A DNA stretch of 64,000 nucleotides from Mesostigma viride (Eukaryota > Streptophyta > Mesostigmatophyceae > Mesostigmatales > Mesostigmataceae), in contig RPFO01000264.1 in assembly GCA_009746045.1 (NCBI GenBank), positions 122,001-186,000 on the forward strand, read 5' to 3'. Positions 6,980-54,494 of this stretch are shown piece by piece (the stretch's first letter is position 1; every line of letters starts with the position of its first letter). A program made the position numbers and the translations under genes. Below the pieces are notes generated by a model. That model did not search any database. It was not told the origin of the DNA and saw only the letters and a program-made list of their open reading frames with translations.

Positions 6980-7049
6980 CGTATTACTCGCCTTTTTCCA
7001 AACATGCCAAATTCTGAGGAATTCCGCATTCCAACTGATGAGGAGGTAG
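6945..7049 (+). CDS. Possible short upstream ORF spanning the B LTR/leader joint
   Basis: An ATG in strong context (ACCATGG) lies 35 bp before the LTR end and opens 34 codons. They run through the primer site and overlap the start of the next ORF in another frame. The peptide is hydrophobic in the middle (LSQLVLLAFF). If transcripts start upstream of it, it could reduce initiation at 7004. It may equally be chance; I see no second family with the same feature. Confidence 0.2.
   Translation: MAEFRAFTLSQLVLLAFFQTCQILRNSAFQLMRR
6980..6987 (+). promoter_or_regulatory. Primer-site position of B (CGTATTAC), complementary to 13157-13164
   Basis: The eight bases directly after the 5' LTR do not begin with TGG, so they do not fit the CCA end of a tRNA. 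Their reverse complement GTAATACG lies in the loop of a hairpin in the same element's 3' noncoding region. Confidence 0.55.
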
Positions 7050-7753
7050 CTGCTCCGCCGGCTGACCCCTTACCGGCTCCGCATCTGCGCGAGCCAAGGC
7101 CGGCCGCGCCATCGTGGCAACAACTGCTTGACGAGGTCACGATTTCGCTTGACGAACTCCATCGTCGGCAGCGCGCAGCACTCCCATTGCTCGGGGATTT
7201 TCCCGAGAACCCCCAACTGCCGCAGCTGGTGCCGGCCATTCGTGGGCCGTTGGACACCATTCGAAACATTCTTTCGCAATTTACGGTCCAGGTCCGTGGC
7301 GGCTTGCGGTCGGTAACTGAGGTCACCACCGCTATCGAGGAGATCGACAACGCCATTTCCTCGCTGACCGGCTACCAGAGAAATTTGCAAAACTGGGCAT
7401 CGACACGCACGGGGGGCGCGCCGGTGGTCACGACGAATTTATTTCAAGACCTCGCATTGCTGTCGCTGCTTACACGCGGCGTGCGCAGTCGAGAGCGACA
7501 GGTGCTCATCAACCTGGTCGCCTTTCTCGCAGCCTTGCGCGAGTGGATTCCCGCAGGCTGGGAGTTGCTTTCAATTTTTACTCATCCTCTGCGCCTCGTC
7601 GCGCGTCGGCGAATTGCAATTTTCGAGCCGACGCAAAACGCAGCGAACACACCGGTGTTGATTCATACGGGTGCAGGTCCGGCCCACACGCCGGATATGG
7701 AGGATCCAGAGTACACCTATCAGTACTGTGATTTTCGCGGCCTCGATTACTGA
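7004..7753 (+). CDS. Family B upstream ORF (249 aa), unknown function
   Basis: This intact ORF lies between the primer site and gag. I recognise no domain. The N-terminal third is acidic and proline-rich. The middle (about residues 40-140) is rich in regularly spaced hydrophobic residues and likely helical or coiled-coil (IRNILSQF, VTTAIEEIDNAISSL). The C-terminal half has basic LRLVARRR. ORFs in the same place occur in families A, A2 and C, so it is probably an element gene. It shows no clear similarity to the A/A2 version. The start is the first ATG of the frame, 24 bp after the LTR. Confidence 0.65.
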   Translation: MPNSEEFRIPTDEEVAAPPADPLPAPHLREPRPAAPSWQQLLDEVTISLDELHRRQRAALPLLGDFPENPQLPQLVPAIRGPLDTIRNILSQFTVQVRGGLRSVTEVTTAIEEIDNAISSLTGYQRNLQNWASTRTGGAPVVTTNLFQDLALLSLLTRGVRSRERQVLINLVAFLAALREWIPAGWELLSIFTHPLRLVARRRIAIFEPTQNAANTPVLIHTGAGPAHTPDMEDPEYTYQYCDFRGLDY

Positions 7754-7917
7754 ATAAATCGGCCCGTTTTCACGTACAAGTCGGCATTTTGTCGATTTTT
7801 CAGCGGCGATTCGCGGGGGCGGCGGCGACACCGGCGCAGGCGGCACTTGAGACAGTTTTTGTACATACCTTCTTCCGCTGCTTTGCTCGGTGTTTTTTGG
7901 ATAGCTTGTAGTGAATA

Positions 7918-9031
7918 ATGGCAGACGGGCGCCGTAGCAAGGGTGCTCCAGCCAGCGGGAACAATGGTGGTGCTGGTAGTGGGACAGCTCACGTAGATGA
8001 CGTGGGTGTCACCGGGGAAATTACCAATGTTCATCACAACCCTAATAATACACAAGCTGTTCATGGCTATGACCTTACCACCCAGGGTTTGCTTATTGTG
8101 AATCAACTGCAACCTGTCACGTCAGACTCAAAGCCCAAGCAGGCTGAGGAGTTTGTGGAGGGGCTAGAGGGGTTTCCAAGTTTGTACGGTGGTACAAACT
8201 ATTACCAGATCTGGATAGGTAGCCAGACTTTTGGCAAGTGTACAGATCAGATAAAGGACCTCACTAGAGAATGCAAGAAGGCCAACAAGGCCTGGTCAAG
8301 CTACGTGGCAGAATTAAAGGAGCTGCTAGAGGATCAGAGGAAGAAAGTGGGGATCCATTGGCAGGATAAATACCAGGGGTGGGAGGTCAAGGAGACCTGA
8401 TCCAGAACTTCCTTAACTATTGTAAAATGGTTGAGGAGGGCAGGGCTCACGGCTTTAATGTTGCTGACAACATAGCCCTGACAAACTGGCTCAAGGTTTC
8501 TGGGCTGGACAAGGCTACACGTGGCTCCTTAAAGGTCATGTGTGCCCCACACTCAACCCTCAAGGCCTACAAGGTCATAATCAAACAAGCACTCGAGGCA
8601 GAGGAGCTGTTTGAGGGTGGAGTGCCAGCAGTGAAGGCTACCCAGGCAGGTGGGCGTACCCAGGGGGCTCCAAGACGTCTGAGGCTGACAGAAGCCAAGG
8701 AGGGCGTAGGGGCAACCATAACAAGCGGAAGGCCAATCATTCACCCGACCCTGACGGGAGGTCACACTCCAAGTCGGTGTTCAGGCGGGTGGGTGGTCAG
8801 CCCAAGCAGGGCAACGCGTCTGACAACGGGGGCAGTGGCCAGGGCAAGTCAAAGATACAATGCTACCTGTGCAAGGGGTGGGGGCACATCAAGAAGGAGT
8901 GTCCCAGCTTCAAGAAGTCCCAGGGCCAGGGCAGCAACAAGAATAACAACAACAACAAGAAGAACAACAACAAGTCCCAGGCAGGCCAGCCTTCAAAGGG
9001 CAGTCAGCAAGAAGACAACAAGGAGCAGTGA
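7918..9031 (+). CDS. gag: Family B gag with CCHC zinc knuckle, two frameshifts
   Basis: The protein starts MADGRRSKG. The capsid-like part runs to about 8380 in one frame. It continues as LIQNFLNYCKMVEEGRAHGFNVADNIALTNWL, written here only in part: key blocks NYCKMVEEGRAHGF and VADNIALTNWL. The last part is in a third frame and carries the knuckle CYLCKGWGHIKKEC near 8862-8903, then an Asn/Lys/Gln-rich tail coded by AAC repeats. Shifts lie at about 8340-8400 and 8650-8750. The gag proteins of A and C read through equivalent regions, so these shifts are probably mutations. The frame ends with CAG TGA CTG, and pol continues in the same frame. Confidence 0.8.
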
Positions 9032-9034
9032 CTG
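9029..9034 (+). promoter_or_regulatory. Probable gag-pol stop-codon readthrough site (UGA CUG)
   Basis: Gag and pol of B share one frame and are separated by this single TGA. From 9032 to the first pol ATG at 9173 there is no other stop. The context UGA-CUN recurs at the same place in A, A2 and C. UGA followed by CU is a known leaky context. Confidence 0.6.
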
Positions 9035-12000
9035 TCTGAGGCAACCCCTACACACCTTAATTCACCCAAGGGGGAGGCCAGGTGCTCCAATGCAGATTTT
9101 ATATCTGGGCAACAAGAGGGTGATCTCCAGGTTCAGGGTGGCCCCAGGTCACCTGGAGAGGTACAGGTTCCTATGAAGACGTCCTTGACAGCTGGTGCAG
9201 CTGTAAGAATGTCTGACCCCATGCATCCTCGTGCTGGGCACGAGGGTGGACCTCTCATTTTGAGAGAAACCAATGTACAACCACAGAGGGGTGTGAAGGC
9301 CTCTGGTGGTATGCATGTGGTCCCTGCTGGCGGTCCAGGTGTTGGGCATGAGCAGGGTGACTCAGGCTCTGAGTCAGAACAGGATGGAAGTCAGCATGGT
9401 GATGCTGGACAACCTGACAGCACAGTCCTGACTGTGCCAGGGACTGCTTCCTCTGTGTACCAGGAGTTGGGTGCCCGAATCCACAACATGTTTGGGCATG
9501 CCACTTCTCTGTCAAACAACTTTGCCTTCCGTATGGGCAGGGCACCCCTTCTCAAGGCGTGTCAGCAAGCTGCCTCACGGTGTAAGTGCCAGTTGTCCTC
9601 CAACAAGCCCAGGAAATCACATGCCAAAGCTCTACCTCAGAGCATTGGTGATCTGCAGTGTGATATCCAACACATCAGGGGCATGCAACTGTTGGTGTGC
9701 GTGGACAGGTACACAAAATACAAGGTGCTGGAGCATTTACCTTCTATGAAGAACAGGTACTTGCTGGCTGCCCTGCAGAATGTAAGAGCCAAGTTTCCTA
9801 CCACAAGGATCCAGGTGGACATGCAGTTTCAGCATCTCAAGGGTGATCCTACCCTTCCTGAGTTGCTGGTTACACCTAGGGAGGCTCATGGGCAGCAGGG
9901 TGCTATCGAGAGGGCAATCCAGGAGGTCAAGAAATTGATCATCTCTGAAGACTGGGTACCCTTGTCTGCACCTGCACTTGTCAGGAGTGCATGGCTGAGG
10001 AACGTGGAGCAGCAGCTGAACAGCAGGGTTAACTTCTACTATGATGGAGTTGCTGTCAGCCCAATGGGTCTATATCATGGCCTGTGCCCACCACATGTGC
10101 TGGAGGGCTGGAAACATGCTGCACATGTCACCTTTGCCAAGCTGAGGGAGAAGGACCGGGGTTGGAAGATGCTGGAGCCACAAGTGGGTCAGAAGGTCCT
10201 AGCTTGGAAGGAACCTAGCCTTTATGGCAAACGTGGTAGCTGGAGTCCTGGGGTGGTTACCCAGGTTGATGAAGCTAGCCACGCATGCTTGGTCAGCATG
10301 GAGGACGAACCAAAGCATGTACACCGGCTGAGTTGGTCATATGTCAAGCCTAACCTGATGAATGAGGGCAGTCAGGCACAAGGCTCACAGGATCTGCAGG
10401 ATTTTCAGGTCCCAAGTGACATCACTGACGCAACGACCACATCTGTTGCAGGGGAATCTGTCAGCCCTGGCCAGGTTGCAGAGGTACTTGTTGAACAGGC
10501 TGCAAGGTCAACAGCTGGGGAGTCAACTGTCAAGCCCAAGGCACTAACCAAGCCCAGGGGGACAAGTTTGGCTGGATTGATTGGGGCTCTACAAAGAGCC
10601 AAGAAGCAGCCCAAGGTAGCCAAGCTCAGGTGGCATGGCAATCTGGGGCTGGACACTGCCTTAGAGGTAGACACTAATTCTCAGGTTTCCATCATTGGGA
10701 CCAGGGCTGCAGCAGGGTACAGCATGACTGAACCCAGCTATCAGTTTGTGTCTGACTTCAGTGGCGGGGTACACGTGAAGGTACTGGGTGAGGTATCTAT
10801 TCCTATCCTTGGACAGGACACTGCATTTTGTGTCTTGGAGGGCTATCAGGGACCTGCTCTTCTGGGGCAGAATTTCCTATGCCAGGATGGGGTAGTGATC
10901 ACGTCCTCTCTCCTGACTAAGGAAGGGGCTGGTCAGGTCCCACTGATTAATTTCAGGACCACTCACCTATCACGTGCAGTAACCAGGACGGTTAAGCGTG
11001 TGCAAGTGTGCCAGGGGCAGGAGCCCTTGGTTGATGACCTCATACTGCCAGCTGCTAGTCATCCAAGCAGTTTGGGCATTGGTCCTCACTCACTTGCTGG
11101 ACACAGCCCTATCAACTACCAAGGCCTGGTGAAGCTCATGTCCTCTCCCATTATGTGTCCCCAGGTCACACTGGGTCTGATTAAATCTGGGGAGGACTGG
11201 ATCTCCAAGAAATGCGTGGAACCTGTCAATGACCTGCCTCCTGCACGACGTCTACTCAAGCTCAAGTTTGTCATCAAGATGAAGGAGGTGGACGGGGTCA
11301 AGGTACCACATGTCAGGCCAGTGCTGAATGAGTTCAAGGGTACTGGTGAGTGCACTGCTGAGGAGTTGTATACCCCTGGCATGTTGCATGACACTTGGAG
11401 GCTGCTGCTGTGTGTATTTCTAGGCCTTCTCAACAAGGGCTTGGACTATGGCTCAGTGGTGGTAGACTTCAAGAGGGCATTTCTGGAGGGGGATGCAGAT
11501 GTGGCACAGGAAAAGTGGGAGGGCAAGACGCCTTTCTATGTCAGGGTGCCTGCTGTATGGAAAAGGGACATTCACACTGAGTTCCTTAAAATCCTCAAGG
11601 GCCTGGAGGGCCTGAGGTCAAGTCCAATAATCTGGAGGGAGACTCTCAACCGTTTCCTGAAGGAGCATTGCAACTTGAAGGTCTCTCCTGTAGACCCCTG
11701 TCTGTTTCTGGGGCAATGGGAAGGCCTACCAGTGTATGCTTCGCTGCACGGGGATGACCTACATCTGATAGCTCCCACGTCGTGGCTTAAGGAGCTGATC
11801 TCCATCATTAAGTCCAAGTTTCCTCTGGGTAGGGAGCAATGGCAGGTGGAGAATGAGCCTCTGCTGTTTGTGGGCATGGAGGCCACACTGGTGAAGAAGG
11901 GGGGGAGTGGCGTATGCTGCTGGTGGGGGGCAATGATTATCAAGAGACCCTCATTAGCAAGCTTCCTCCAACCATCACACAGGCACTGTGTCCTATGGTG

Positions 12001-12657: not shown

Positions 12658-13606
12658 GCTGGTGCCTGGTTATAGGGCATTGGAGAGCAGATTGTGTGGT
12701 AGTGTCAGCATTGTGACTGGCATAATACCTGTATTTTAGTCTGTACTAAGGCTCATGGACCATGGTACACTCACTCTGATTTTAATCAGGATACAGCCAG
12801 GTTTTGGCTGGGGTTCATGCTGTTGACTACACAAGGTTGACAGGTCCATTACAGACCATGTATTCTATTTTAAAAGAAATGTATATTTGTACATACCTCT
12901 CACAATGGTCTGGGAACCTTTATTCTGGGGTTTATAGGGCGGGGTTCGATTCCCTGGTATTATGTTTCTACAAGCTGGCCTGTTCAGGTGTTTGCCTGTT
13001 CAGACTTCCCTAGTTCCCCAGGGCAGGATTTAATTGTTGCCTATGTGTTTCATTTTGTCATTTGTTTGCTGTGGCAGTTTACCATCTGGCAAGTAGACGG
13101 GCGCCGTAAGACGGGCGCCAATAGACCCCTGTTGAGAGAATGACAGGCAAACTATTGTAATACGCCTTACTTTGTCAAGTGGTATTTTAATTGTCATGGA
13201 TTTATTGTACTTATATTGAATATGTACTGGGTTTTATGGGATTAGTATCTGGGATTAATGTAACTCACCGCCAGAAGGTCATTGTACTGGAGGCTCTACC
13301 GAGGTGATGGGATTAATTCCTGGAGAAGACCTCATAGAATTAACCTGTATGTATTTAATTTTGTGTGTTCTAATATCTGGTGGTACTCTGTAATGCCACT
13401 TCCATAGGTTTTTATCCATTTCTCATGGAATGGTTTTCCCTGTGGCAGATCTGTTTCTTTTCCAGTTCCTTAAAAGAAAAGGCTGGGGGAATGGCAATGG
13501 CCATTAAAGACATCTGTTCAAGCTTCAAGCTGGAGTGAAGGACATTTCAAGCTACTTCAAGGGTCCCTGGCAGGGGATGTGATCCCTAAAGAAAAGAAGG
13601 GATTGG
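12658..13606 (+). other. Family B 3' noncoding region with structured motifs
   Basis: The T-arm-like motif GGGGTTCGATTCCCT is at 12941-12955. It lies in a 22-bp block identical to family C, although the flanks differ. The two GGCGCC motifs (13100-13105, 13114-13119) can pair as a hairpin. The hairpin at 13141-13175 (AGGC/GCCT, outer TGAC/GTCA) shows GTAATACG in its loop. The purine tract AAAGAAAAGAAGGGATTGG ends at the 3' LTR. Confidence 0.75.
13141..13175 (+). promoter_or_regulatory. Family B anti-primer-site hairpin
   Basis: GTAATACG at 13157-13164 is the exact reverse complement of the primer-site position 6980-6987. It is presented between short inverted arms AGGC (13145-13148) and GCCT (13164-13167). 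Confidence 0.5.
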
Positions 13607-14223: not shown

Positions 14224-14694
14224 TTAACCCCCAGTGAAGACATGGGCTCCCCAATAAGGCAGTATTTGTGTAGGTGCTACCTGAGTCTCTTTGAGCATAA
14301 AAGGGAAAGGCTGGCCAAGGCGGGCGCCATAAGAACGGGCGCCTGTGATAACTGTGAAAGATCAGGAACTCACAATAGTACGTTCTTGGCATCCTGTAAT
14401 CCCAGCCATTGGACTAGGTAATGTGCCTTGACTTTAATCTAGCACCAAGTTCCCAAGGAAAGGTTGGGAGCTGACCAAGGGGTCAGGGGATAACCTGGGG
14501 TGACCTCTGATTCACTGGCCAGTACACCTAGCCTGGTCCAAGGGCAGATATGTTGTTTTCCCAAAAGGAGGCAGGAACCTGGGCCCTCAAAGGTCTGATC
14601 AACCTCAAGGGACCAAGCGGTCTGTGGCTGAGTGGGCACAAGCAAGGTTAGGTTTGTTTCAAGCTGGTCCAGCTCCAAAAGAAGAAAGGGTTGG
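14224..14694 (+). other. Family A 3' noncoding region, second part (after the B insertion)
   Basis: This resumes the A sequence interrupted at 6362. It contains the GGCGCC pair (14323-14328 and 14338-14343) and the hairpin 14363-14388 (CAGGAAC/GTTCTTG). The loop of that hairpin carries CAATAGTACG (14373-14382), complementary to the A primer site at 43371-43380. The purine tract ends at 14694. Confidence 0.8.
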
Positions 14695-16173: not shown

Positions 16174-17847
16174 CTACGTAAGTGAGTGTCGCGCCTTGTA
16201 CTCGCTAAGAAGGCGTGCACAACCATCTAGCTGGGACTCAGGCAACCAGCTGCTGTCATGTTGCGACCGGTGGAACATCCAACGGATCAGGAACTGTCGT
16301 CCTCGACGCGTATCGCGGTGTCCTATGATGGCGTCCACCTCGTCCTCACGCTCCCCCGTCTCTGGGTCGTGCTCGATAGGCGCCGGAGCGTCCACCCTGC
16401 CTTGAACGGCACTCTCCTTGTACAACTTAAGTTGATCCCGATGAAAGAGATTAGACTTAAGGTTCCAGGAGGAAGGGACTCGGACATAGTACATGACCTC
16501 GTTGAACCGCTTCTCGACTAGGTAGGGTCCCATGAACAGTGGTCGCAACTTGGTCTTGAGGCCTTCTTCGAATTTCTCTCGGAAGCGCCCCACGCGCGGA
16601 CCTTCCAGCAACACCAGATCACCCTCCTTGATCTCCGGAGTCCGTGAGTCCCTGGCTGCCAGGGTTCGCGCTAAGTACTTGTCTCGAGCCTTGGTGTACC
16701 CGGCGATGGCACAATCATGGGCCAGTGGCAGGTTCTCCAACAGCTCCCGCACCCCTGCATCGGAGTTCCGTAGAACCGGCTGCTCCAACAGGGTGCCGGT
16801 CAGAAGGTCGGCCGGAGTGAGAGGGTGCTGACCCGTGTCCAGAAAGAACGGGGTATACCCATGTGCTGCGATAGGAGAATTGTTGAGGGCAAATTCCACC
16901 ATCGGCACGATCTCATCCCAGTCGCCTCCACCCCTATCCACGTAATGACGCAAACTCTCCTGCACCACACGGTTAAGTCGCTCCACCAGATGTGAAGTCG
17001 AACTGTGGTAGGCGGTGCCGAGCGTTACCTTGGTACCAAGGGCAGAAAAGAAACTCTGCCAGAACTTGGATGTGAACAACTTGTCCTTGTCGCTAATGAA
17101 CTGGCGACTCATTCCGTGGAACCGGAAGACATTGTTCAGGTAAAGCTTGGCACATGCCTCAGCCGTGAGGTTCAGAGGACACGGCAGTAAGTGACAGCGC
17201 CGTGTCATCCGGTCTAGAATGACTAGAAGTTGCTCATTACCTGCCTTGGTCAACGCGAACGGTCCCACAAAGTCCATCATGACGCTGTCCCAAGGGCGCA
17301 CAGGGTCCGGGATGACTAAGGGGATGGCAGCTGACCCAGTGTTCCTAGGCTTCATGACCTGGCATGATCTGCAGGTACTGACGTATTCCTCAGCATCGCG
17401 CCGCATACCTTTCCAATAGAACGTTCGCTGAAGTAAATCAACAAGACGTTGGGTACCGCGGTGTCCGCTATGCTGCTCGTCGTGAAGCTCATGGAACAAG
17501 GCAGATCGACAGATGAGGGGCACGTATAGCCGCCACGTGTCAGGTCGAACCTGTACGTGTAGAAAACCCATCTGGAACTTACACGGGAGGCCGTCCATCA
17601 TCTGAGGATGGGACGCTATGGCTTCCCGTGCAGTAGGCTCGGTGATGGTGAATCGGCTGATCGCCCTTTCCAGATCGGACTCGACTGTAGCTACGCTGTT
17701 GAGAGCAGCAGCAAACAAGTCGATTGACTCACCAATAGGGACCAAGGGGTGGTAAACCCCGCTAGAGGGCGCAAAATGGCTCAAAGGAAGAGCCGACCTG
17801 CCCTCCCGAGCTACCGAGCTAGACCCCTCCCCCCAAGGGGGATCCAA
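16174..17847 (-). CDS. pol: Chromovirus integrase with C-terminal chromodomain
   Basis: The HHCC zinc finger is intact (HDEQHSGHRG ... CRSCQ). The DDE core shows DFVGPF, SDKDKLFTS and HLVERLNRV. After the GPF/Y-like region (LRPLFMGPYLVEKRF, LFHRDQLKLY) a chromodomain occupies roughly the last 60 residues (VDAIIGHRD, FLIRW, SSWLPESQL). In this family the chromodomain guides insertion to marked chromatin. Only two of the usual three aromatic cage positions are obvious by eye. The frame overlaps the RT frame by about 37 bp, indicating a frameshift. Confidence 0.9.
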   Translation of the reverse strand: MDPPWGEGSSSVAREGRSALPLSHFAPSSGVYHPLVPIGESIDLFAAALNSVATVESDLERAISRFTITEPTAREAIASHPQMMDGLPCKFQMGFLHVQVRPDTWRLYVPLICRSALFHELHDEQHSGHRGTQRLVDLLQRTFYWKGMRRDAEEYVSTCRSCQVMKPRNTGSAAIPLVIPDPVRPWDSVMMDFVGPFALTKAGNEQLLVILDRMTRRCHLLPCPLNLTAEACAKLYLNNVFRFHGMSRQFISDKDKLFTSKFWQSFFSALGTKVTLGTAYHSSTSHLVERLNRVVQESLRHYVDRGGGDWDEIVPMVEFALNNSPIAAHGYTPFFLDTGQHPLTPADLLTGTLLEQPVLRNSDAGVRELLENLPLAHDCAIAGYTKARDKYLARTLAARDSRTPEIKEGDLVLLEGPRVGRFREKFEEGLKTKLRPLFMGPYLVEKRFNEVMYYVRVPSSWNLKSNLFHRDQLKLYKESAVQGRVDAPAPIEHDPETGEREDEVDAIIGHRDTRRGRQFLIRWMFHRSQHDSSWLPESQLDGCARLLSEYKARHSLT

Positions 17848-19787
17848 GCGTCCTCGCGCACTACCTCACTGGCCCAATCCACACCGGTGGCGAAGAGCGA
17901 GCGATAGGTCGGCGAGTCCGGTGGTGCCCCGTAAGGTTCGACGGGGCCCCATAGGGGCACCTCCACCGTGGCTAGAACGTCCAAGGTGTCGTGGAACCAA
18001 TAATCGGACCTACGGGACAGGGCATCTGGAACGACGTTGTCCTCACCCTTCACATACTGAATGCGGAAGGGCTCAAACTGGGACAAATACTCCAACCACC
18101 GCGCTTGCCTGGGAACTAGCGTGGGTTGTGTGAGCAGGTGAGTCAGAGGACGATGATCTGTCTGAATGACAAGTCGGTAAGGATCCTCCTCGCTAGGCTG
18201 GCAGATGGAGACATCAAACTGTGCTCCTAGAAGGAGGTGGCGCCACGTATAGCAGCAGTAAACCACCGCGAGTAGTTCCTGCTGGTGTACCGGATAATTG
18301 CGTTCCGCCGCTATCATCGTCCGCGAGATGTACTCGATAGGCTGAAGGCCATTACCGAAGTCCTGCATCAACACGCCTCCTATCGCCACCTTGCTGGCAT
18401 CCGACGCAACCACGTACCCCAGAGAGGGGTCCGGTAGGGCCAGGACTGGAGCGGTGAGAAGCCGCTCTTTAAGGCACGCGAACGCGCCCTGGCACTCAGC
18501 TGTCCAGGCCCAAGTGGTTTCCTTCTTCAACAGATTGTTGAGAGGAGCAGCCAGGGTGGCAAAGCGAGGAATGAAGCGACGATAGTAAGATGCCATGCCA
18601 AGAAAGCTGCGTATCTGACTAACGTTGGTCGGGGCAGGCCAAGTCTGGACTGACTGGACCTTCTCGGGGTCGGTTGCGACCCCTTGTGCAGATAGCACAT
18701 GTCCCAGGAAAGGTACACTGCGCCCCGACCGAATCTTGGCACGGCGTGCGGACAACTGATTGTCCCGCATGATACCCAAGACCGCCGCTACATCCTCTAA
18801 GTGGTCTGCGAATGAACGCGAATAGACGAGAATGTCATCCAAGTACACGGCGACACACGTGCGCTTGTAAGGCGCGACAGGAACGTCTGTGTCTTTAACT
18901 CCCGGATCCCGAAGATCTTGAGACACCTGCGGTAGCCGTGTAGTACCCATGACTGGGCGAAAGATGTGGTTCATCAACATCTGGAAGGACGCTGGTGAAT
19001 TGCACAGTCCCATGGCCGCCACCTTGAACTGGAAGTGGCCATAGGGCGTGGCGAAGGCGGTCTTGTGACAATCTTCTGGCGCAATGCGCAGCTGCCAAAA
19101 CCCATCGGCACAGTCAAGTACCGTGAAACAGGTGGCTCCCTGCACCTTGGCGAAGATGTCGTCGATCCGGGGCAACGGATACTTGGATTTAACCGTAATC
19201 GCATTGATCATGCGATAATCCGTCACCAGCCGCCACTTACCATGCGGTTTGGGGACAAGAAGGACCCCAGCCGAATACGGACTGTTACTCTGCTCAATCA
19301 GGCCAGACTCCAATAATGAAATCAGAATCTTCTTCAGTTCGGCCAACTCAGACGGGCCCATGCGGTACATAGGCGACGTGGTTGGGCCCGCTCCGTCCTT
19401 CAGCTGGATCCGGTGTAAAACGGGGCGAGCTGGAGGAAAGGTGGGGTTCTTATCAGCAAAAACCTCAGAGAACCGATCTAATACCTGATTGTACGCCTTA
19501 CCCTCATCGTCGGTGAAATCCGCACAGAGAGAGTTAACCTCGACTACGGCCCGCAGATCGTCGGGCCTAATAGCATAAAAATAAGCACCCTTGCGAACTA
19601 GGCGGCGAACCTCCTTCTTGGAACAGAAGATTTTCTCCGCTGGACGCATAGGACGCGCCGGCTCTGATCGATCCGCTACGGTGATCCCGTTGGCAGCAAA
19701 ATGGCGCTCGGGCCCCACGAGAAGCCGTCGGCAAACCAGACTACACCCGTGCGATATTGAATCTGCACGTCGTGTTCCCGGTGCCAA
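17811..19787 (-). CDS. pol: Chromovirus reverse transcriptase and RNase H
   Basis: RT motifs are in order: LIEQSNSPYSAGVLLVPK, WRLVTDYRMIN, LDCADGFWQL, FQFKVAAMGLCNSPASFQ and the catalytic AVYLDDILVYS. Then FLGMASYYRRFI and RNase H (ASDASKVAIGGVL, QELLAVVYCCYTWRH, TDHRPL, DALSRR). About 30 extra residues (GTTRLPQ ... VAPYKRT) lie just before the YLDD box, where most gypsy RTs have only a few. Coordinates follow the longest open frame; the real product would be joined to the protease by a shift near 19700. Confidence 0.9.
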   Translation of the reverse strand: MAPGTRRADSISHGCSLVCRRLLVGPERHFAANGITVADRSEPARPMRPAEKIFCSKKEVRRLVRKGAYFYAIRPDDLRAVVEVNSLCADFTDDEGKAYNQVLDRFSEVFADKNPTFPPARPVLHRIQLKDGAGPTTSPMYRMGPSELAELKKILISLLESGLIEQSNSPYSAGVLLVPKPHGKWRLVTDYRMINAITVKSKYPLPRIDDIFAKVQGATCFTVLDCADGFWQLRIAPEDCHKTAFATPYGHFQFKVAAMGLCNSPASFQMLMNHIFRPVMGTTRLPQVSQDLRDPGVKDTDVPVAPYKRTCVAVYLDDILVYSRSFADHLEDVAAVLGIMRDNQLSARRAKIRSGRSVPFLGHVLSAQGVATDPEKVQSVQTWPAPTNVSQIRSFLGMASYYRRFIPRFATLAAPLNNLLKKETTWAWTAECQGAFACLKERLLTAPVLALPDPSLGYVVASDASKVAIGGVLMQDFGNGLQPIEYISRTMIAAERNYPVHQQELLAVVYCCYTWRHLLLGAQFDVSICQPSEEDPYRLVIQTDHRPLTHLLTQPTLVPRQARWLEYLSQFEPFRIQYVKGEDNVVPDALSRRSDYWFHDTLDVLATVEVPLWGPVEPYGAPPDSPTYRSLFATGVDWASEVVREDAWIPLGGRGLAR

Positions 19788-35880: not shown

Positions 35881-36215
35881 AACCTAGGAAGTACAGGACC
35901 TGTCACAAGCCTGCAAGGCTTAGTATCCTTGCAGACCTGTGCCAGTTCCTGTAGTCCAATGGTCACAGGCTGCTGCTCCTCTGGTCTACGTGGACCACAG
36001 TCACGTGATAGTCAGGCTAAGCCTGTGCAGGCACGGCCTGCCACGTGTCCTGTCCACTATACCAGAGGACTGTACCCTAGTCGGCCACGGACGGCTAGGA
36101 CTTCGGGACCTTATATCTTTCTTGTCCCTTGTCTGTTTCAGGCGGTCAGCACGGCGTTGGAAAGGTCTTTCCAAACTGCATCCACTTAGCATATTGGTTG
36201 CCCAAAATGCTAACT
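35881..36215 (-). repeat. 3' LTR of the minus-strand A element, truncated
   Basis: On the minus strand it starts AGTTAGCATTTTGGG after AAAGAAGAAAGGGCTGG. The similarity stops at CAGGTCCTGTACTTCCTAGG, about halfway through the 648-bp LTR, where the E fragment begins. Confidence 0.85.
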
Positions 36216-37225: not shown

Positions 37226-40200
37226 CTATGGCCGCCCGTGTAAGGGGTCCATGAGCCCACGGAGCAGGGGGTACTGCCTCTCCGCCTTCTCCTCCAGCTT
37301 GGTGAGGGCATCTGCAGGGTTGTCCACACCAGGCACATGTTCAATGTGAGCTAGGTAGGACATCTCCTTGAGCAACAAGTAGTCAAGGTCCCTGCTCCTG
37401 GCCAGCTGCCTGTGCACAAATTGCACCATGCCCATGCTATCAGTCCTCACCAGTGTGTGCAGCTGCAACCTACAGGAAGCCACTTGACATAGCTGGTAGA
37501 AGAGCTCCCTCAAGTAAAGAGCAGTATGCAGCCCTTCACAGATTGCCCTGCACTCAGCAATATCACTGCTGGGTGTAACCCTGTTCTGCAACCGACTGTA
37601 CCAGGTAACAAGTGAGGTGTGATCTTGCTCCAGGGTAACTAATGCTGCTGCCCGGCCCCTGACCTCTGTGACCTTCCTATTGTCCATAGAACTGTCTACA
37701 TAGAGAACCATGTCAAGGGGCTTGTACAAATCCACAGGACCCAGTATGAGAGGGGGAGACATCATGACAGCCTGCACCACACTCTCAGCACCCACCTCAA
37801 CCAGCTGGGAATCAGTAAGTCGACTCAGAACCAGCAAGTCAGGGGCACATATACTTGCAAGCCATGCCAGCATGCCCCTGATGGTAGCACACCTAGCCTG
37901 CGTGATGGGCTCCTGCAATGCATCTACAATCTGCTGTGGGTAGTCCTTACCACCCTCCATCCTGATGAACCACGAGCCCTTGGCTTGGAACAACGTAGCC
38001 TGCATGCCACAGAAGACCATAGGCTCATTCTCCACCATGTGCTGTATCTTACCCAGCTCAAACCGCTTCTGGATCTTAGCCAAGACAGCCTCAACCCAGT
38101 CTGGTGGACCTATGAGATGCAGGTCATCACCATGCAGTGAGGCAAAGACAGGAAGGCCATTGTAGGACCCTTGGAACAAACAGGGATCCACTGGAGACAC
38201 AGAACCCACAAGTATTCTTCAAGAATTTCTCTAGGCTCTTTCTCCAGATAATGGGACTGGACCTGAGACCTTCCAACCCTTTCAGAATTCTCAGGTACCT
38301 GGCCTTTATCTCTGCTCTCCATACAGCAGGTACAGTCACAAAGAAAGGAGGGATATCTCTCCAAGTCTGCCTAGCCTGATCTTGGTCACCCTTGAGAAAA
38401 GCCCTCTTGAAATCAATCAGCACAGAGCTATAGGGCACACCCTTAACCAGAAAAGACAGAAATATACACAGCAGAATCCTCCACGTGTCATGCAGCATCC
38501 CTGGAGTATAGAGCTCCTCATCTAACAACTGGCCAGTGCCATGATACTCGGTTACAACTGGTCTGACATGTGGCACCTGGACACCATCAACCTCCTTGAG
38601 CTTGAGGACAAACATCAATCTGAGCAGCTGGTGAACTTCTGGCAGCTCATCCACAGGTTCTGCACAGTTGGAAACTATCCACTCATGCCCAGAAGCAACA
38701 AAGCCAAGAGTCCATGCCTTAGCCATCTTGGGGCTCTGCATCATCTCGACTAGCTGGCGCCAGGGAATAGGACTGTGAGCAGCTATCTGGTACCTGTTTA
38801 CCCCTAACTGCCTTGGATCAAAGGTGGTTGGGATTATCAACAAGTCCTCAGCTATGGGCTCCTGACTCTGAGGACCCTCAGCTGGCTGACTCCTAACAGC
38901 CTTCACCGCCACTGCAAGACCCTGGGAATAGTGATATCTTTCAAGGGGGAGGCTGCCCCTGCCTTCTAGTGCCAACTCATCAGAGGTCAAAGTAACCCCT
39001 GGCATGCACAAGAAGTTCTGTCCCAGAATGGCAGGCCCCTTATAGCCCTCTACCACACAGAACGTGGTGGGCACCCCTAAGATAGGCACACTCACTTCCC
39101 CAAGGATCTTCATGGACACCTTTCCTGAGAAATCAGACACAGCAAGGCAACTGGGATGGGACATCTGTAAGCCTACAGCATCCTCTTCCCTGATGACAGA
39201 CACCTGTGAGTTGGTATCTACCTCCATTGTAGCTGCCCAGCACGACCCCCACCCCGTGAGCTTGGATACCTTGGGATCATGTTTGCTGCGCATGAGTGCT
39301 CGGATGACGTCCGCCATGAGAGGCCCCCGGGCCTTAGGTGGCTGCCCCGTCCCCTCTGGCCTTGTGACAGTTGCTTCAGCAGCCTCCTCCTGCTCGTCAT
39401 CTTCCAGCAGGGACAGACCATCATCCACCACCAGAGGATTGTTAGCTGCTGCTGCCTGGCTCTGGCCTGGCTCCTCAACCCAGCTGGGAGGGCCTGGCCC
39501 GTCTGCAGGCCAGATTGCATGTGGCCTTCTTTCCTTGACATGAGCCCAGGACAACCTGTACACGTGCCTTGGATCCTTTTCCAAAGCCACCAGGCAAGAT
39601 CTGTTAGCTTCTTCCACACGAGTGACAACCCCATCCTGCCACTTCCCCCGCTTGCCTGGAATAGATGGTTCCTTCCACATCCTGACCTTCAGCCCCACCT
39701 GAGGCCTCAGCACATTCCAGTTCTTGTCCTTACGTCTCAGCTGGGCAAATAACCTATCTGCCTTCCTAAGACTGGCCTGCACCACGTTCTCAGGTAACAA
39801 GCTATACTGCAGGGCCAGGGGAGAGACAGCCACACCATCAAAGTAATAGTTAACCCTGTGGTTCAGCTGCTCTTCTATCCCCTTACACCAGGCTGCCCTC
39901 TCTAAGGCAGATGCCACAAGTGGCACTGACTCTGCTGCTAGCACCACTGTCTTCACTTCACGTATGGATCTCTCTACAGCCCCTTGCTGCCCATGACTCT
40001 CCCTGGGGACTACTACCAGCTTACAAGGCAGCTGGTCCTGATGCTTGAGCAAACAGTCAAACTGCAAGTCTGCCTGCACACTCTTGCACACCCCAAAGCC
40101 TGGGATCAGGGCCTTCATACCCAACAACAAGTGGTGCTCCTGCATACCAGGCAGAACGTCTATCAGCCTGTATCTGCTGAACCTGTCCACTGCCACCAAT

Positions 40201-40794
40201 ATATACAAGCCCCTGATATGCTGGATATCCATCTGGATGTCGCCACGCTCCCTAGCAGGCTCCCTAGCATGGGACTGAGGTGGGTGAACAGCATTCTCCT
40301 GGCAACCACAGTTCTCAGCAGCAGCCTGGCATGCCTCCCACAAAGGCTCCCTACCTAGCTTCCAAGCAAACATTGCTGCCTGCCCAGAATGCCCAAACAT
40401 ATGATGCAATCTATGGCCAGCCTCAGCATAGCTCAGCACTCTGTCAGTACTGACCTGGCGAGACGTCTGAACCGTGTGTGGGGACACATGATCCACTCCT
40501 GAGGTTCCAGGGCTTCCTGCAGGCCATCCTGACTCCCCAAGCCAGGCCTGCTCCCTGGACCGCTCCAGGCCCTTCCAGCAAGGTCCTTTGGCCCTCCAGG
40601 CCAGCACCTGCTGGAGACCCACCACCTGCATGAGGCATAGGGAATTCAGCTGCAGCATTGTTATTGCAATCCAGTGGAAGAACAACATCTTTACACCCTT
40701 GGTGCTGCACAAGGGGCACACCCCCATCCTTATGTACATCCAACACACCTTCCCCAAGGGGTGATTGACTATTTACAGGGGATGATGTAGCTAG
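37226..40794 (-). CDS. pol: Family A pol: integrase - protease-like - RT - RNase H
   Basis: The order is as in A1 but without its insertions. Linker after the stop: SPVNSQSPLGEG. Zinc region RLHHMFGH ... NCGCQ; integrase MDIQHIRG, QADLQFD, GQQGAVERSIRE; tail WKEPSIPGKRGKW. Protease-like domain: MEVDTNSQVSVI ... SDFSGK ... AILGQNFL (about 39225-39010). RT: DFKRAFLKGD and SLHGDDLHL near 38130. RNase H: YVDSSMDN, SDIAECRAICEG, VDNPADALTKL. Two single-base shifts break it: about 40545 (one G fewer than A1) and about 38205 (a few bases differ next to VSPVDPC). Confidence 0.9.
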
Positions 40795-40797
40795 TCA
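40792..40797 (-). promoter_or_regulatory. Gag-pol junction stop UGA CUA in the pol frame
   Basis: Upstream of SPVNSQSP the pol frame reads CAG TGA CTA, matching the UGA-CUN context of A2, B and C. In this copy the knuckle is in another phase and ends at a TAG a few bases on. I infer a single-base indel between the knuckle and this point. Confidence 0.45.
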
Positions 40798-42148
40798 CTG
40801 CTGCCCCGACTGGCCCCTGCCCCAGCAGGCTTGGCCTTCCTGTCAGGACACTCACGACGCCAGTGACCTTCCTTGCCACACACAAAGCATGCTCCACCCT
40901 TCTTCCCAGACCCAGCCCCACCCTTGCCAGGCTTCCCTGGCCTCCCTGAGACTGTCCACCCTGCTTGCCCTGGTTGCCTTGAGCTTGGCCCTTGCCTTGC
41001 CCTTGGCCACCCTTACCCTGCTGACCACCAGCTTGCTGGCTCCCAACCCCTCCTTGGGAACCTGCACCCTTGCCACCCTGAGCCCCCTGCCTCTGGCGCC
41101 TGAAGCGCTTACGCTTGTTGGGCCTTGCCCCATCACGGGCTGGGTACCCGGGGACATCACCTTGGCCCTGCACAGCGGAGGTGGCATTGCTGCCATGGGA
41201 CTGGATAGCTTTGCAGGCAGGATCTGGCTTCCTTATGCTGAGGATTACAAGCTCCAGAGCACGCAAGGAGCCATCAGTCTGGTTAAGAAACATGCGGGCA
41301 CTGTTCCTCCCATCCACACTCAAACCCATACGGTCCAGGAAATAGTCTGCCAAGGCCCTATCTGTGACCAGGAAGCCATACTTGGCCCCCTTGTCCCTGA
41401 TACGGTTGAGCCTAGCCCATTCCTCTGCCACAGGACCCACTATCTCAAAGGTGTCATACTGATGTTTATAGTAGTTGGTGAGGTTGAGAACCTTGTCAGA
41501 GAACTCCTCCCTCAACCCATCCAGGAACTGTGCCCAGGTTAGCTTATCCTTGACACCAGTCCTAGCCTTTTCCCTGACACGCTCTGACGAGTCCCTGTTG
41601 CACGTGGACGAGTGAAACACTTGCACTAGGTTGACAGTGGGGTCCACGGAGAGCACAACCAGCTCCATGTCCTCTAGCCACTTGTCTAGAGCTTCCTGTG
41701 CTAGTGGTGGGTTAAGAGGCTTTTGTCCATTCATAAGCGTGACTGCACTCATGTGAGGTCTCGACCCTGGCAGCGCTTTCACCGGCTCCACCACAGTGGG
41801 TGTCACAGCAACAACGCCACTTGGGCCAGCAAGCACAGGGGAGAGCACATCCACGTGAGGCCTCTTACCATTGCCGTCAGCGGAGGTGTCCCTCTTACGC
41901 TTCTCCACGGCAGGTTGCCCATTCGCCACCGTTATTGCATCAGATGCTCCTAGCGCCCGCGCCTTGCGCGCCTCCTCCACCGAGTCTTCGTGCCGTCTCT
42001 TGCTGCCTGGTCTCTTTCCCCCATCGCCCTCGCTGGCTGGGATCGCCTCCCCCACCAGCTGCTCCTTGTCTTGCCGAGGCTCCTGGCTCGCCCCAGCCGG
42101 TGCCTCCATCTCGCCCTTGTCGCCGTCTCCCGGTTTGCCACGAGGCAT
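40798..42148 (-). CDS. gag: Family A gag with CCHC knuckle, frameshifted near its end
   Basis: Starts MPRGKPGDGDKGE. A charged N-terminal region with KRRHEDS and EKRKRD is followed by the capsid-like part (LDKWLEDMELV, DPTVNLVQVFHSS, LTWAQFLDGL, YFLDRMGLSVDGRNSAR). Next is an Arg-rich block KRKRFRRQRQ and a long Gly/Gln repeat region. The knuckle CFVCGKEGHWRREC lies at about 40890-40850 in the next frame; the shift is near 40930. It matches A2 gag along its length. Confidence 0.85.
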
Positions 42149-42169
42149 TATATACAGTGGGATGACAAA

Positions 42170-43348
42170 TCAAAACAGGCGACAGACAAGGAAAACAGGC
42201 TCAAGCGCTGGTGCTGCCGGAAGAAGCCGCTGGATGCTCTCAGCTATGGCCTCCTCCTCACGCTCCTGCGCTGTGCGTGCCACCGGTGTCCCCACGCGTG
42301 GAACTGAGCGGACCTCCTCCGCGTTGTAAGGACCGAGCACACGGCTCACCGGCCTCCCGGCTGCTGTCTGCTCTACCGGCAGTCTAGGCGCACTGCCACG
42401 GCGATACCACTGAAGATTCCTGACCCACCGACTACCACCACCTCGCCGGTCGTTCCGCGAGCCCCGACCAATCTCCCCAAAATCGTGTTCCGGCTCAAAG
42501 GGGATGTTTAACTCTGCCCTGCGCCTGGCCGAGTATCCCTCGTTTGTGCCGTCACCCTCGTCAATCTGTTGTGACGAGCGGGCTATGATTCCCGTTGGCC
42601 GGTCCACGAACTGATCGTGGAACTCCTCGTCGGAGACGTCTCGACCGGTGATGACTGTCACCGTCGGCCCAGTCGCCCCTGGCCTGCTCTGCAACCTCGG
42701 AGTGTCCAAGGTCGACCAAATCCCCGGCGGCCGCGTAGTGATCACCCAGTGATCGGCGTGACCACGCGCCTCTTGGATCAGAATGTTGACCAGGTGCTCA
42801 CACGTTTGAGCCACCACCTCGGCCGAATCCCACGGGCTATCGGCCTCGCGCGTCTGCGCGTCCCGTATGATATGTGACGCGTCGGTCCCCTCCCCCAGCG
42901 AGCTTGTCGCCACCCAGTGATTATACAATCTGGTTCCACCTAAACAGATGGCCACCAGTTGGCCCAGCGTTTCACGCGCTAAGTCCAGCGCCTGGATGGT
43001 TACGTGCCCGCCCTGGTACGCAACTTCTAAACTGTAGATCAACGAAGCAATTTCGTCGCGAATGGCGACGAGGCGCTCCGTGCAGACCCGTCCTGTTTCC
43101 CCTGGCGACGTCGTCGCCCTAATCCTCATCACCACAGGGTCGTTTGCCGACGGCCCTGCTGCGTTACCGAACACAGCGACCCAACCTCCTTCCGCAAGGC
43201 CCCTTGCAACGTGGGCCGCTTGCACAAATGTAGAAGCGTTGGACGGGTGATTATAGGGGAAGAATGCGTCTTCGCGCGCCGGCAACTCTGGAGCTGCTTC
43301 GCGCCTGGGAGATGACTCAGGTAGAGTAACCCGAGCCTCGGCCGACAT
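42170..43348 (-). CDS. Family A upstream ORF (392 aa), unknown function
   Basis: An intact ORF between the primer site and gag, ending 21 bp before the gag ATG. I recognise no known domain. The core, about residues 30-190, is conserved in the A2 copy at 32214-33288 (FVQAA, SPGETGRV, VAYQGGH, LDLARE, RLYNH, LGEG). The C-terminal third is Arg/Gly-rich (DRRGGGSRWVRNLQWYRRG) and could bind nucleic acid, which is inference. The start MSAEARVTL is 33 bp after the LTR; A2 has an ATG at the matching place. A packaging, regulatory or envelope-like role cannot be chosen from sequence; there is no signal peptide or membrane segment. Confidence 0.75.
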   Translation of the reverse strand: MSAEARVTLPESSPRREAAPELPAREDAFFPYNHPSNASTFVQAAHVARGLAEGGWVAVFGNAAGPSANDPVVMRIRATTSPGETGRVCTERLVAIRDEIASLIYSLEVAYQGGHVTIQALDLARETLGQLVAICLGGTRLYNHWVATSSLGEGTDASHIIRDAQTREADSPWDSAEVVAQTCEHLVNILIQEARGHADHWVITTRPPGIWSTLDTPRLQSRPGATGPTVTVITGRDVSDEEFHDQFVDRPTGIIARSSQQIDEGDGTNEGYSARRRAELNIPFEPEHDFGEIGRGSRNDRRGGGSRWVRNLQWYRRGSAPRLPVEQTAAGRPVSRVLGPYNAEEVRSVPRVGTPVARTAQEREEEAIAESIQRLLPAAPALEPVFLVCRLF

Positions 43349-43370
43349 GAAACCTTTGCAAACAGAAATG

Positions 43371-43380
43371 CAATAGTACG
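43371..43380 (-). promoter_or_regulatory. Primer-site position of family A (CGTACTATTG)
   Basis: Directly after the 5' LTR on the minus strand. It does not begin with TGG. All ten bases are complementary to the 3' loop sequence at 36526-36535 and to 14373-14382 in A1. Confidence 0.55.
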
Positions 43381-43886
43381 AGTTAGCGAGCAGCCAGAAC
43401 TGTGAGTTCCTGGTCTCTCACGCCACACAACGGGATGAGCCAAAGTTGCAAGGCAGCAACCTTTTAACCCGTGCACCAAGCCACGACCACGGTGAGCGGT
43501 TCCACGTCCAATGTGGGAGCCTCGGTTCGTGCTTGCCAAGATAGCTGGTCATCCCCCATGACCAAGCTATATCCTTTGCGTTGTTCCTCGTTCCCATCGG
43601 CGTGACGAGGCACGTGCAGGCAGGCAAGCAAATCCTCAACGTCCACTGGCATCAGTGCAGAGCCAGGACGAACTGGATTTGCCTAGACTCTGCAACCTAG
43701 GAAGTACAGGACCTGTCACAAGCCTGCAAGGCTTAGTATCCTTGCAGACCTGTGCCAGTTCCTGTAGTCCACCGGTCACAGGCTGCTGCTCCTCTGGTCT
43801 ACGTGGACCACAGTCACGTGATAGTCAGGCTAAGCCTGTGCAGGCACGGCCTGCCACGTGTCCTGTCCACTATACCAGAGGACTGT

Positions 43887-45822: not shown

Positions 45823-46122
45823 GGTTGTGGCGCGACGCACACACGTGTACGCAAGTTACGTAGCTAGCAACTAGTCTAGTGGACGTTGTGCGTAGTAACG
45901 TTGCTCCAGGTCTAGAAGCCTCTAGAACCTGGACACGTGGCGGACAAGTGAGCGTAGTCCAGTTGTCCTAGGGATCTCGTGTGAGTGAGGTGTCCACGAC
46001 ATATAATGTGTGCCCACATATGGAGTGAATAATGACAAGGAACGCCCGATCCCTGGCGTTGCTGCAGCCATCATTCTCACACTGAGTCCCCAACGTCTCC
46101 GACGTACATCTATATATCTAAC
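45823..46122 (+). other. Unassigned 300 bp, possibly the 3' part of another LTR
   Basis: It contains a TATA-like ACATATAATG, an AATAATGACA tail region and ends TATATATCTAACT, the type of end seen for A-D LTRs. There is no second copy in the window and no ORF. It abuts the A 5' LTR at one side and a truncated A2 LTR at the other. Confidence 0.3.
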
Positions 46123-46665
46123 TACTGCCGACCGGCGGGCGAGGGCGGTGCACTCTCAGGGCATAGTGGACAGGACACGTGGCAGGCCGTGCCTGCACAG
46201 GCTTAGCCTGAACCCTCACGTGACCGGGACACAGTGTACTGAGGGCTCAACGGTCCTGTGGCTAGTAGAAGCCAGTAGCCAGCCAGCAGGTCTGCAAGGA
46301 TGTAAGTCCATGCAGGACTGTGGCAGGTCCTGTGCTGTCCTAGACACAGGATAGCCAGAGATTCCTGTATGCTGCCTGCAACAAGGATGCAGGGCAGCGA
46401 TACGAGGCTCTGGCAATGTAGCGTTGCCCAGCGTTGCTCATGACCGAGGAACAAGGATGGAACGAGGTTGCATATAGCTCGAGGCTCAACGAGGCAACGA
46501 GCATCTTCGCACACGAACCTTGGTCGTCACGACGAGTGGCGAGCCTATCGAGGGTCGTAGGCCTCAGTGGTGTGAGGATAAAGGTTGCTAGCCAGCAGCC
46601 TAGGGTCATTCCAGCCGGCAAGGACCAGGAGCTCACAAGCTCTGCTGATGAGTTGCTGCGCAAAT
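46123..46665 (+). repeat. LTR, family A2, lacking its first ~120 bp
   Basis: It starts at ACTGCCGACCGGCGGG and runs to the end TTGCTGCGCAAAT. It is nearly identical to the matching part of 61580-62236. Confidence 0.85.
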
Positions 46666-46715
46666 CGTACTATTGTGAGTTCCTGGTCATCCAGTTATCA
46701 CAGGCGCCCGTTCAT
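46666..46715 (-). other. Primer-site position fused to an inverted A2 3' segment
   Basis: After the LTR end the plus strand reads CGTACTATTG, as expected for the primer site. It then continues with the reverse complement of the A2 3' noncoding region (TGAGTTCCTGGTCATCCAG ... GGCGCCCGTTCAT), where A and A2 leaders have CATTTC/CTTCC. On the minus strand this is a 50-nt 3'-region segment ending CAATAGTACG, joined directly to LTR complement. A 13-bp filler (46716-46728) separates it from the next block. Confidence 0.75.
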
Positions 46716-47108: not shown

Positions 47109-47806
47109 AGTTAACGCCAAGCGCATTGGCGTGATCCTGATTCGGCATATCTCTGCGATTCCAACGGCACCGGAACGAGTTCATTCCGACAAGTATCAAG
47201 AAAGTTATGGCGTTCCGACTTCCCGGTCGCGCGCGAGCGCGAGCCGGCTGTTCTTCTAAGTCGGACGTGAATATTTGCCGACGGCATATGGGGTCGACAG
47301 TAATTCCTGGGCTGACAGGAATTAGGTGCTGTACCTACGACGGTATTGGATTAATACGTCGTACGCAGGAAATAGGAACCTTAACCTGTGGTCTGTTGGT
47401 ACCGCAGGATTAGTCCTGGACTTCTAGGTGCAGATGCAATAATCACTGTGGTGACTGTACTCTGTGGTCACTGTGCCTGTATGGCAGACCTACTGTATAG
47501 GAACTGGGCGCTGTACAGGTAGTGAATACTGTACCGGGGTGTTATTACTGAGCATACCTCTTAGGTTGCTCAGGACTAGCAAGCACAGTGCACAAGTATA
47601 TAAACAATAGGCCAGTGCCATTTGGGCAGATCTCTTGCGAGCCCGCCTCACGTGTTGTGCCTTGACTTGGCAAGCGCGTGTACAAGCCTCAAGTGTGTGA
47701 GCGCTGTAACATTATCCAATTTTAACAAAGCTCCGTTTCCAACCATATTCACACATTGCTGCATTGCAACCATATCCTTCACATTGCGTTGCTAGGAACG
47801 TTAACT
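47109..47806 (+). repeat. 5' LTR of element C
   Basis: It starts AGTTAACG and ends CGTTAACT, an 8-bp perfect terminal inverted repeat. TATA-like AGTATATAAACA lies near 47597. Confidence 0.93.
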
Positions 47807-47816
47807 CAAATTACAA
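47807..47816 (+). promoter_or_regulatory. Primer-site position of family C (CAAATTACAA)
   Basis: Directly after the LTR. All ten bases are complementary to TTGTAATTTG at 54255-54264 in the 3' noncoding region of the same element. Confidence 0.55.
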
Positions 47817-53100: not shown

Positions 53101-53688
53101 CTTGAGGATGAGAAGCCTCGAGTCATAGCCCGGTTGGTGGAGAGTACCCCTGATCTGATTTTGTCTGGGATTGACTTTGCCCAGCCTATCACCTTGGAGA
53201 TCTTTGTTGACAGTTCCATGGATGCTCGCCAGGTTACCAAGGTCAGGGGGAGATCTGCTGCTCTGTTTGCTTTTTATCAGAGCAGGGCAAGTTTGTTCAG
53301 CTGGTACAGCAGACTGCAGAAGAGGGTCTGTATCAGTTCAGATGTGGCAGAATGCAGGGCCATATGCGAGGGGATCCAGTCCAGCCTGTACATAAAGGAG
53401 TTAATGCTGGAGCTGGCTTCAGTTACCCCTTGGACCTTGCAGATGGAGACGTTGTTGCTAACAGACAGCATGGGTATGGTCCAGTTTGTTCACAAGCAGC
53501 TGGCCAGAAGCCGGGACCTGGATTATTTGTTGCTGAAGGAGTTGGCCAGTTTGGTTGACTTGAAGCATATCCCTGGCGAGGAGAACCCTGCTGATGCATT
53601 GACAAAGCTGCCACACAAGGCCCCAGCCCAGTACAATGTACTGAGGAAGCTCATGAATGCTGACTGTCAAGTCGGTCTATCTGTCTAA
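50100..53688 (+). CDS. pol: Family C pol: integrase - protease-like - RT - RNase H
   Basis: From 50100 to about 50485 it is in the gag frame. A one-base slip in the A4T4 run near 50483 puts the rest in the next frame. Then it is open to 53688: RLHTMFGH ... CKCR, integrase VDIQRIRG, CDIQFEC, GQQGVVERAIQE, tail WKEPSFPGKRGSW. Protease-like domain near 51690-51905: MEIDTNAQVSVM, SDFSGR, VILGQNFL. RT: DFKRAFLKSD, SLHGDDLHL near 52777. RNase H: FVDSSMDARQ, SDVAECRAICEG, NPADALTKL. It is the best reference copy for domain order. Confidence 0.92.
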
Positions 53689-54494
53689 AAGCTGAGAGCT
53701 GGGTGCTTAAGTCTCTGGATATCAGGCTGGGAGCTTGATTGTACATAATCCTGAGCACACCTTGAGGGGTGAGACATGTCTCTGGTGTGGGAATGTCTGA
53801 CATTGTCTCTGATGGAGAGATGTCTATCTGGGGTTTTCATCTCAGTCTGAGGTTTCCCCAGATCTGTGGTTTGTGGGCGGGGTTCGATTCCCTGGTGCCG
53901 TCTTAAGGCGGAGTTTCACGGACTGGCTGACCCATCCACCATGCTGGTGAGGTGGCGACAGGTCCCCTGATTTTCCACGGTTGGAACGAGTATGGGAGCT
54001 TGTGTTTTGCATGTGCTTCGCGTAGATGTTGTGTCTGGTTCGATAAGGGGCAGCAGACCGGCGCCGACTCCCGTCTGGGGGTCAGCAATGTTTTCTGATG
54101 AGCTGTTGTGGGTGATCTGTGGGGTTTCGCCTAAGGTCCTGAAGGTTGTACATACTTCTCAAGTTCTTAGCTGAACACCTATGGGCTGCCACAGTTGGCC
54201 AACCTCTTGTACATGGGTAACACAACGAGCCTCCCGTGAAGGGATAGGGACTCATTGTAATTTGTTTGTGCTCCTGAACCAGTATGGGTGCTATGTACAT
54301 ATAATAAGGAATCCAAGCTGACTGTCATGCCCAGTGGGTGTGACTTGTAGTCAGGGAGGATGTCCAGGAATCCAAGCTGGCTGTCATGCCCAGTGGGTTG
54401 TGACTTGTAGTCGGGGAGGATGTCCAGTACCCATTGTGTGTGTTTGTATGTAGACTTGTGTGAGCTGCTACAGCTCAAGAAAAGAAAGGATTGG
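53689..54494 (+). other. Family C 3' noncoding region
   Basis: The T-arm-like GGGGTTCGATTCCCT is at 53879-53893, in the 22-bp block shared exactly with B. A single GGCGCC lies near 54060. TTGTAATTTG (54255-54264) pairs with the primer-site position; the flanks (AGGGAC ... GTGCTCCT) form only a weak stem. A tandem duplication and the purine tract AAGAAAAGAAAGGATTGG precede the LTR. Confidence 0.75.
54308..54426 (+). repeat. Tandem duplication (59 + 60 bp) in the C 3' noncoding region
   Basis: Two copies of a unit starting GGAATCCAAGCTG and ending GGGAGGATGTCCA, with about three differences. It may be a recent slippage event. Confidence 0.9.

Follow-up and report, generated by a model that had tools for sequence, protein, structure and literature searches.

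The window analysed here, a 64-kb stretch of the 440-Mb genome of Mesostigma viride that consists largely of nested LTR elements, raises the question of how these elements prime their reverse transcription. None of the five primer sites, one for each of the families A, A2, B, C and D, starts with TGG, which speaks against the 3' end of an ordinary tRNA as the primer, and this mode of priming was rejected on that ground. The first-pass annotation had proposed that the positions directly after the 5' LTR pair with the 3' noncoding region of the same family, and that the pairing serves either an element-encoded primer or circularisation of the RNA. All eleven of the sequence strings quoted with that proposal were found in place and on the strand given.

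The five families appear to be copia-like LTR retrotransposons, since weak matches to RVT_2 point to the Ty1/copia class. These matches, which lie below the Pfam cut-off, were obtained with an A-family copy (E value 1.1e-4), with B (E value 4.4e-6) and with a second B copy, and no RVT_2 match came from the remaining frames of A, A2, C and D that were compared with Pfam. A purine-rich tract, like the LTRs themselves a Ty1/copia-type feature, precedes the 3' LTR; the pattern devised for this tract gave 13 matches, which are no census because it missed the tracts of A, B and C themselves by one base. The longest pol matches of A2, B and C are mutually about 47–51% identical and D shares 28–38% identity with them, values that mark the families as old. 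After the LTR ends had been redrawn by self-comparison, the LTR was found to start with AGTT in all five families and to end with AACT in A, B, C and D and with AAAT in A2. A 5-bp target duplication, a further feature of the Ty1/copia class, is visible in B (TTAAC) and C (CCCTT) only, and marks the insertion of B into a copy of A and of C into a copy of A2, respectively. On its minus strand, the window also contains a second D-like pol fragment (34195–35883), 47% identical to D over 148 amino acids, and an element of the Ty3/gypsy type (16177–19787) that encodes reverse transcriptase, integrase and a chromodomain and for which neither LTRs nor a primer site were found. Few copia elements were present in a 200-kb sample adjoining the window.

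Anchored at its first base, the sequence behind the LTR has an exact complement in the 3' noncoding region of its own family, 10 nt long in A, 8 nt in B, 10 nt in C and 12 nt in D, and located 230–442 nt upstream of the 3' LTR. The A site (43371–43380, minus strand) directly follows a 5' LTR of which 43886–43381 is preserved, and its partner CAATAGTACG (36526–36535, minus strand) belongs to the same element. The B site (6980–6987, plus strand) directly follows the 5' LTR at 6363–6979 and corresponds to GTAATACG (13157–13164); the C site (47807–47816, plus strand) directly follows the 5' LTR at 47109–47806 and corresponds to TTGTAATTTG (54255–54264); the D site (1501–1512, minus strand) directly follows an LTR ending at 1513 and corresponds to TTTATGAATACA (28506–28517). 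The two sites come from one element in A, B and C and from different copies in A2 and D. The anchored match was equalled at none of 194 control offsets in A, C and D and at two of 194 in B, while among 20,000 shuffled 3' regions for each family the match was contained in 16 for A, 312 for B, 37 for C and none for D. B alone is weak, with 8 nt and a frequency of about 1.6% by shuffling. In A2, the LTR ends with AAAT at 32213, base 32214 is a G, and the site (32215–32223, plus strand), which had been placed directly after the LTR, lies one base further in. Its exact complement, which is part of CAATAGTACG at 61299–61308, is limited to 9 nt and to this shifted position, whereas anchoring at the LTR end leaves 3 nt, a length equalled at all 194 offsets and in all 20,000 shuffles.

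The sites differ between the lineages while the pairing is kept, as the first-pass annotation had maintained: there are four different sites, and each is matched by the 3' region of its own family. Matches to the 3' regions of other families extend over 3–6 nt, with the exception of A against its sister family A2 (10 nt), and in A, B, C and D no other stretch of the whole internal region equals the 3' site as a partner. In each of the five families the longest partner in the LTR measures only 3–5 nt, and a Tf1-like mode, in which the transcript primes with its 5' end, was rejected for this reason. If the comparison is extended beyond the core, the match in C covers 15 of the first 18 bases, and that in D includes five more (CCCGA) after a gap of three; nothing notable was seen there in A and B. 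The A site reads CGTACTATTG in all eight of the A loci examined, which were the best matches of one search. A longer site is present at a normal 5' end of the C family (L059; G000:C14:325650-326150), where the exact match with the C 3' region extends to 16 bases, as though copying had brought a larger part of the primer into the site.

Each 3' site had also been placed in the loop of a hairpin. In the predicted folds this is the case for D, where a long hairpin (28478–28545, plus strand) would carry the primer in its terminal loop, and not for A, A2, B and C, where the site falls mostly on the junction strand of a branched fold. Given enough flanking sequence, the second A copy (14312–14398, plus strand; primer at 14373–14382), A2 (61238–61325, plus strand), B (13080–13180, plus strand) and C (54205–54300, plus strand) are predicted to form branched domains, with the primer core as an unpaired strand between two helices and the last primer bases in contact with the closing stem. 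For A itself the branched fold was predicted in one of three contexts, with another minimum-energy fold in the remaining two. Two B variants are also predicted to branch, their inner helix being altered; of three C copies, one (L039) is predicted to fold differently, with part of the site paired. Between A_1 and A2, two closing-stem pairs are changed on both sides (G-C to U-A and A-U to U-A), as read by eye from the predicted folds. Folding z-scores against shuffles, computed on shorter stretches, were -3.0 for A, -2.5 for A2, -1.59 for B, -0.58 for C and -4.8 for D, i.e., there is no folding excess in C and little in B, and all of these folds are predictions from few sequences. The presence of a known Rfam RNA was rejected: the scan of the window, the only one to include B, C and A2, returned nothing at gathering score, and the A and D 3' regions, scanned separately, gave weak matches only, far below that score. 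The end of the A LTR (about 43395–43410, minus strand) carries GGAACTCACA, and so does the 3' domain just before the primer (14363–14382). Because the same sequence occurs at both places, the pairing strand within the 3' domain could be contested by the A 5' end, which would free the primer; this arrangement is not evident in B or C.

The complementarity is accompanied by a second kind of sequence, in which the end of an LTR is joined directly to the reverse complement of a 3' region. The example in the window (46120–46711, plus strand) consists of an A2 LTR ending at 46665 and a copy of the A2 3' region (46666–46711) that starts exactly at the primer's last base. A search pattern composed of the LTR end, the primer copy and the bases that follow was run genome-wide, with the reversed pattern as control. 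For the A group, four exact matches (L009–L012) were obtained, the one in the window included, and 206 matches when up to two mismatches were allowed; the reversed control gave none in either case. Among the 100 matches listed of these 206, there were four exact, four with one mismatch and 92 with two, and all of the 92 listed begin with AGAACG and represent normal 3' regions on the other strand. The four listed with one mismatch form a subfamily, A4, with the LTR end TAAAT and a base change in the primer (CAATAATACG); all four were read and are fused in the same manner. The three A4 fusions compared upstream all differ, one having an internally deleted LTR and one a two-LTR junction. The latter junction (AAATT-AGTTAGC) lies directly upstream of the A4 fusion at G000:C2044, about 8650–9510.

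The A-group copies also differ in how far they extend. In L009 and L012, at least 1.5 kb of sense body runs up to the primer's last base and is followed by reverse-complement LTR. In L012 this terminus comprises nearly the whole LTR and reaches its outer edge, while in L009 it comprises U5 and the adjoining LTR, followed by a palindromic turn such as a fold-back of strong-stop DNA would produce. In L010 and L011 the primer copy halts after about 46–48 nt at a GGCGCC hairpin and LTR sequence comes next, preceded in L010 by a short filler. In the stretches L033 and L034, the 5' ends of L009 and L012 were not seen. The A2 fusion has the 3'-region base C at a position where the single A2 site seen has G, one copy being available of each.

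For B and C, the corresponding pattern gave 41 exact genome matches (22 for B and 19 for C), and its reversed control none. Ten of the 41 were read, of which eight are clean fusions with 175–433 nt of reverse complement of the 3' region at 95–100% identity; of the other two, one (L057) departs from the 3' region after about 22 nt and one is L059, the ordinary C 5' end with the longer primer site described above, with no fusion. Although the normal B site matches over 8 nt only, the B fusions track the 3' region from base 9 onwards. In one C copy (C1783), the reverse-complement body is still colinear at 3.7–4.2 kb from the junction, where the far end and not the intervening stretch was read, and this suggests that the primer was linked to a long piece of element RNA. 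Counting the A-group loci (A, A2, the relative A3 represented by L012, and A4) together with B and C, fused junctions are found at the exact predicted 3' end of the primer. The matches are not all independent: three in C2156 are spaced at 1,245 bp, and one C1783 and one C1435 match share a flank. The three in C2156 (G000:C2156:1088835-1091342) are B fusions on the same strand, and a single fusion apparently gave rise to this tandem array. At G000:C1783 (about 31250–43490), two C fusions face each other, with a reverse-complement and then a forward body between two LTRs, and the left LTR is fused to the end of a B LTR. A diverged C relative (L037) is too degraded for comparison. Within 361,639 bases at loci chosen for A, B or C fusions and partly overlapping, which does not allow a fair count, neither four reciprocal patterns (up to two mismatches) nor the D fusion pattern was encountered.

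Taken together, the pairing and the junctions make it probable that reverse transcription in these families is primed from the element's own 3' region. Between the two options left by the first-pass annotation, the element-encoded primer is favoured because in the fusions the reverse complement of the 3' region is attached to the LTR end and begins exactly at the predicted 3' end of the primer, and circularisation alone predicts no covalent joins. Circularisation may nevertheless accompany priming. In its strongest form, the competing explanation holds that the pairing circularises the RNA, as CYC5-CYC3 does in Ty1, that some other RNA primes, and that the fusions stem from plus-strand strong-stop DNA which mis-annealed to the 3' region and was extended. 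This is a serious rival, as it would account for the same junctions and for their one-way direction, and a 5'-3' pairing required for reverse transcription is known in Ty1 (PMC4974528). However, the copy of a separate primer should keep the 5' sequence past base 8 in B, where the fusions follow the 3' region from base 9; this, together with the base in the A2 fusion (C against the G of the one A2 site, one copy each), disfavours mis-annealing. Furthermore, no other partner for the post-LTR site was in sight when the internal region and the LTR were compared. We therefore regard this explanation as unlikely.

The fusions could also be ordinary recombination products or assembly artefacts at short inverted repeats. 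Indeed, each element carries its 8–10-nt sites as inverted repeats, nesting of copies is frequent, and duplicates occur among the matches. An inversion should, however, yield both junctions, and the reciprocal one was absent for family A from the genome at up to two mismatches, by which simple inversion was rejected for that family; moreover, the breakpoints recur at the same base across families, next to differing LTR variants and on many contigs, and we give this origin very little credence. The same holds for priming by a host tRNA fragment or other small RNA with the 3' match as a side effect, a scarcely probable reading despite the half-tRNA primers attributed to other copia lineages (PMC6317226), since no site starts with TGG, each of the four different sites matches its own 3' region and the fusions carry element RNA rather than tRNA. 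ARAGORN found no tRNA in the window and, with introns allowed, only three unlikely ones of about 0.87–1.1 kb in 264 kb.

For priming from the 3' region, the following course can be envisaged. The folded domain, 230–442 nt upstream of the 3' LTR, would present 8–12 nt to the site after the 5' LTR, either in cis or on a second packaged RNA, and the element RNA would be cut just 3' of the paired stretch. By analogy with Tf1 (PMC7175516), the enzyme responsible is perhaps the element's own RNase H; a host nuclease or a self-cleaving fold are possible alternatives. Extension of the end so created by reverse transcriptase, across U5 and R, would yield minus-strand strong-stop DNA with element RNA attached, and an intact second RNA would then serve for strand transfer. 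Plus-strand synthesis that runs past the primer site would copy the attached RNA backwards from its 3' end, and the product of such run-through would be an LTR followed by the reverse complement of the 3' region.

Parts of this scheme have counterparts in known systems, namely self-priming from the 5' end (Tf1), 5'-3' contacts (Ty1 and Ty3), and copia lineages with half-tRNA or predicted self-priming. In Tf1 of S. pombe, a member of the Tf1/sushi group, the first 11 bases of the transcript are described as the primer, RNase H cutting between bases 11 and 12 (PMC7175516). As proposed for the present families, the element's own RNA pairs with the post-LTR site in Tf1, and the cut falls where the duplex ends; the fusion junctions described here fit a Tf1-like cut at that position. 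The primer of Tf1 is, however, the 5' end of the transcript, whereas the match in A to D lies in the 3' noncoding region. In Ty1 and Ty3, an interaction between the 5' and 3' ends of the genomic RNA is reported to be needed for efficient initiation (PMC4974528), and the contact between CYC5 and CYC3 in Ty1, like the bipartite site of Ty3, resembles the pairing found here. Both elements are primed by tRNAiMet, with CYC5 downstream of a separate tRNA site in Ty1 and the tRNA pairing with both ends in Ty3. In A, B, C and D, by contrast, the paired site occupies the primer-site position itself, beginning with the first base after the LTR. Among plant copia elements, predicted self-priming or half-tRNA priming has been described for TAR, Osser, Bryco, Gymco-II and Bianca (PMC6317226). 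These likewise have no standard tRNA 3'-end site, and the accessible part of their description contains no primer from the 3' region. Fungal GalEa (PMC5445492), Dictyostelium Skipper (PMC5006619) and Cryptococcus Tcn2-5 (PMC7175516) are reported to lack the usual primer site, their priming being called unexplained or novel; as far as these accounts go, GalEa differs in having a hairpin directly after the LTR, and Skipper in having a pyrimidine tract. In the open-access literature, most subscription papers being outside the scope of the search, no description of a 3'-region primer was found.

Although the fusions and sites all come from one genome, that of Mesostigma viride, we lean, with rather less assurance than for self-priming as such, towards a second class of self-priming that is common to two or more copia lineages separated by a deep split (A/B/C and D). 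In this class, a cut of the genomic RNA within a folded 3' domain would create the 3' end that primes minus-strand DNA just behind the 5' LTR, with kilobases of element RNA still attached to it. With every cycle, the site could be rewritten as the primer is copied, and the two would then drift together. A primer from the far end of the element would provide a concrete answer for LTR elements without a tRNA site, among them Skipper, GalEa and Tcn2-5, whose priming is left open in the accounts cited above. Searches for tRNA matches or for 5'-end matches alone would miss such a primer. Fusions of an LTR with the reverse complement of a 3' region would record the primer's 3' end in genomic DNA and, like the partner in the 3' noncoding region, can be searched for in any such element.
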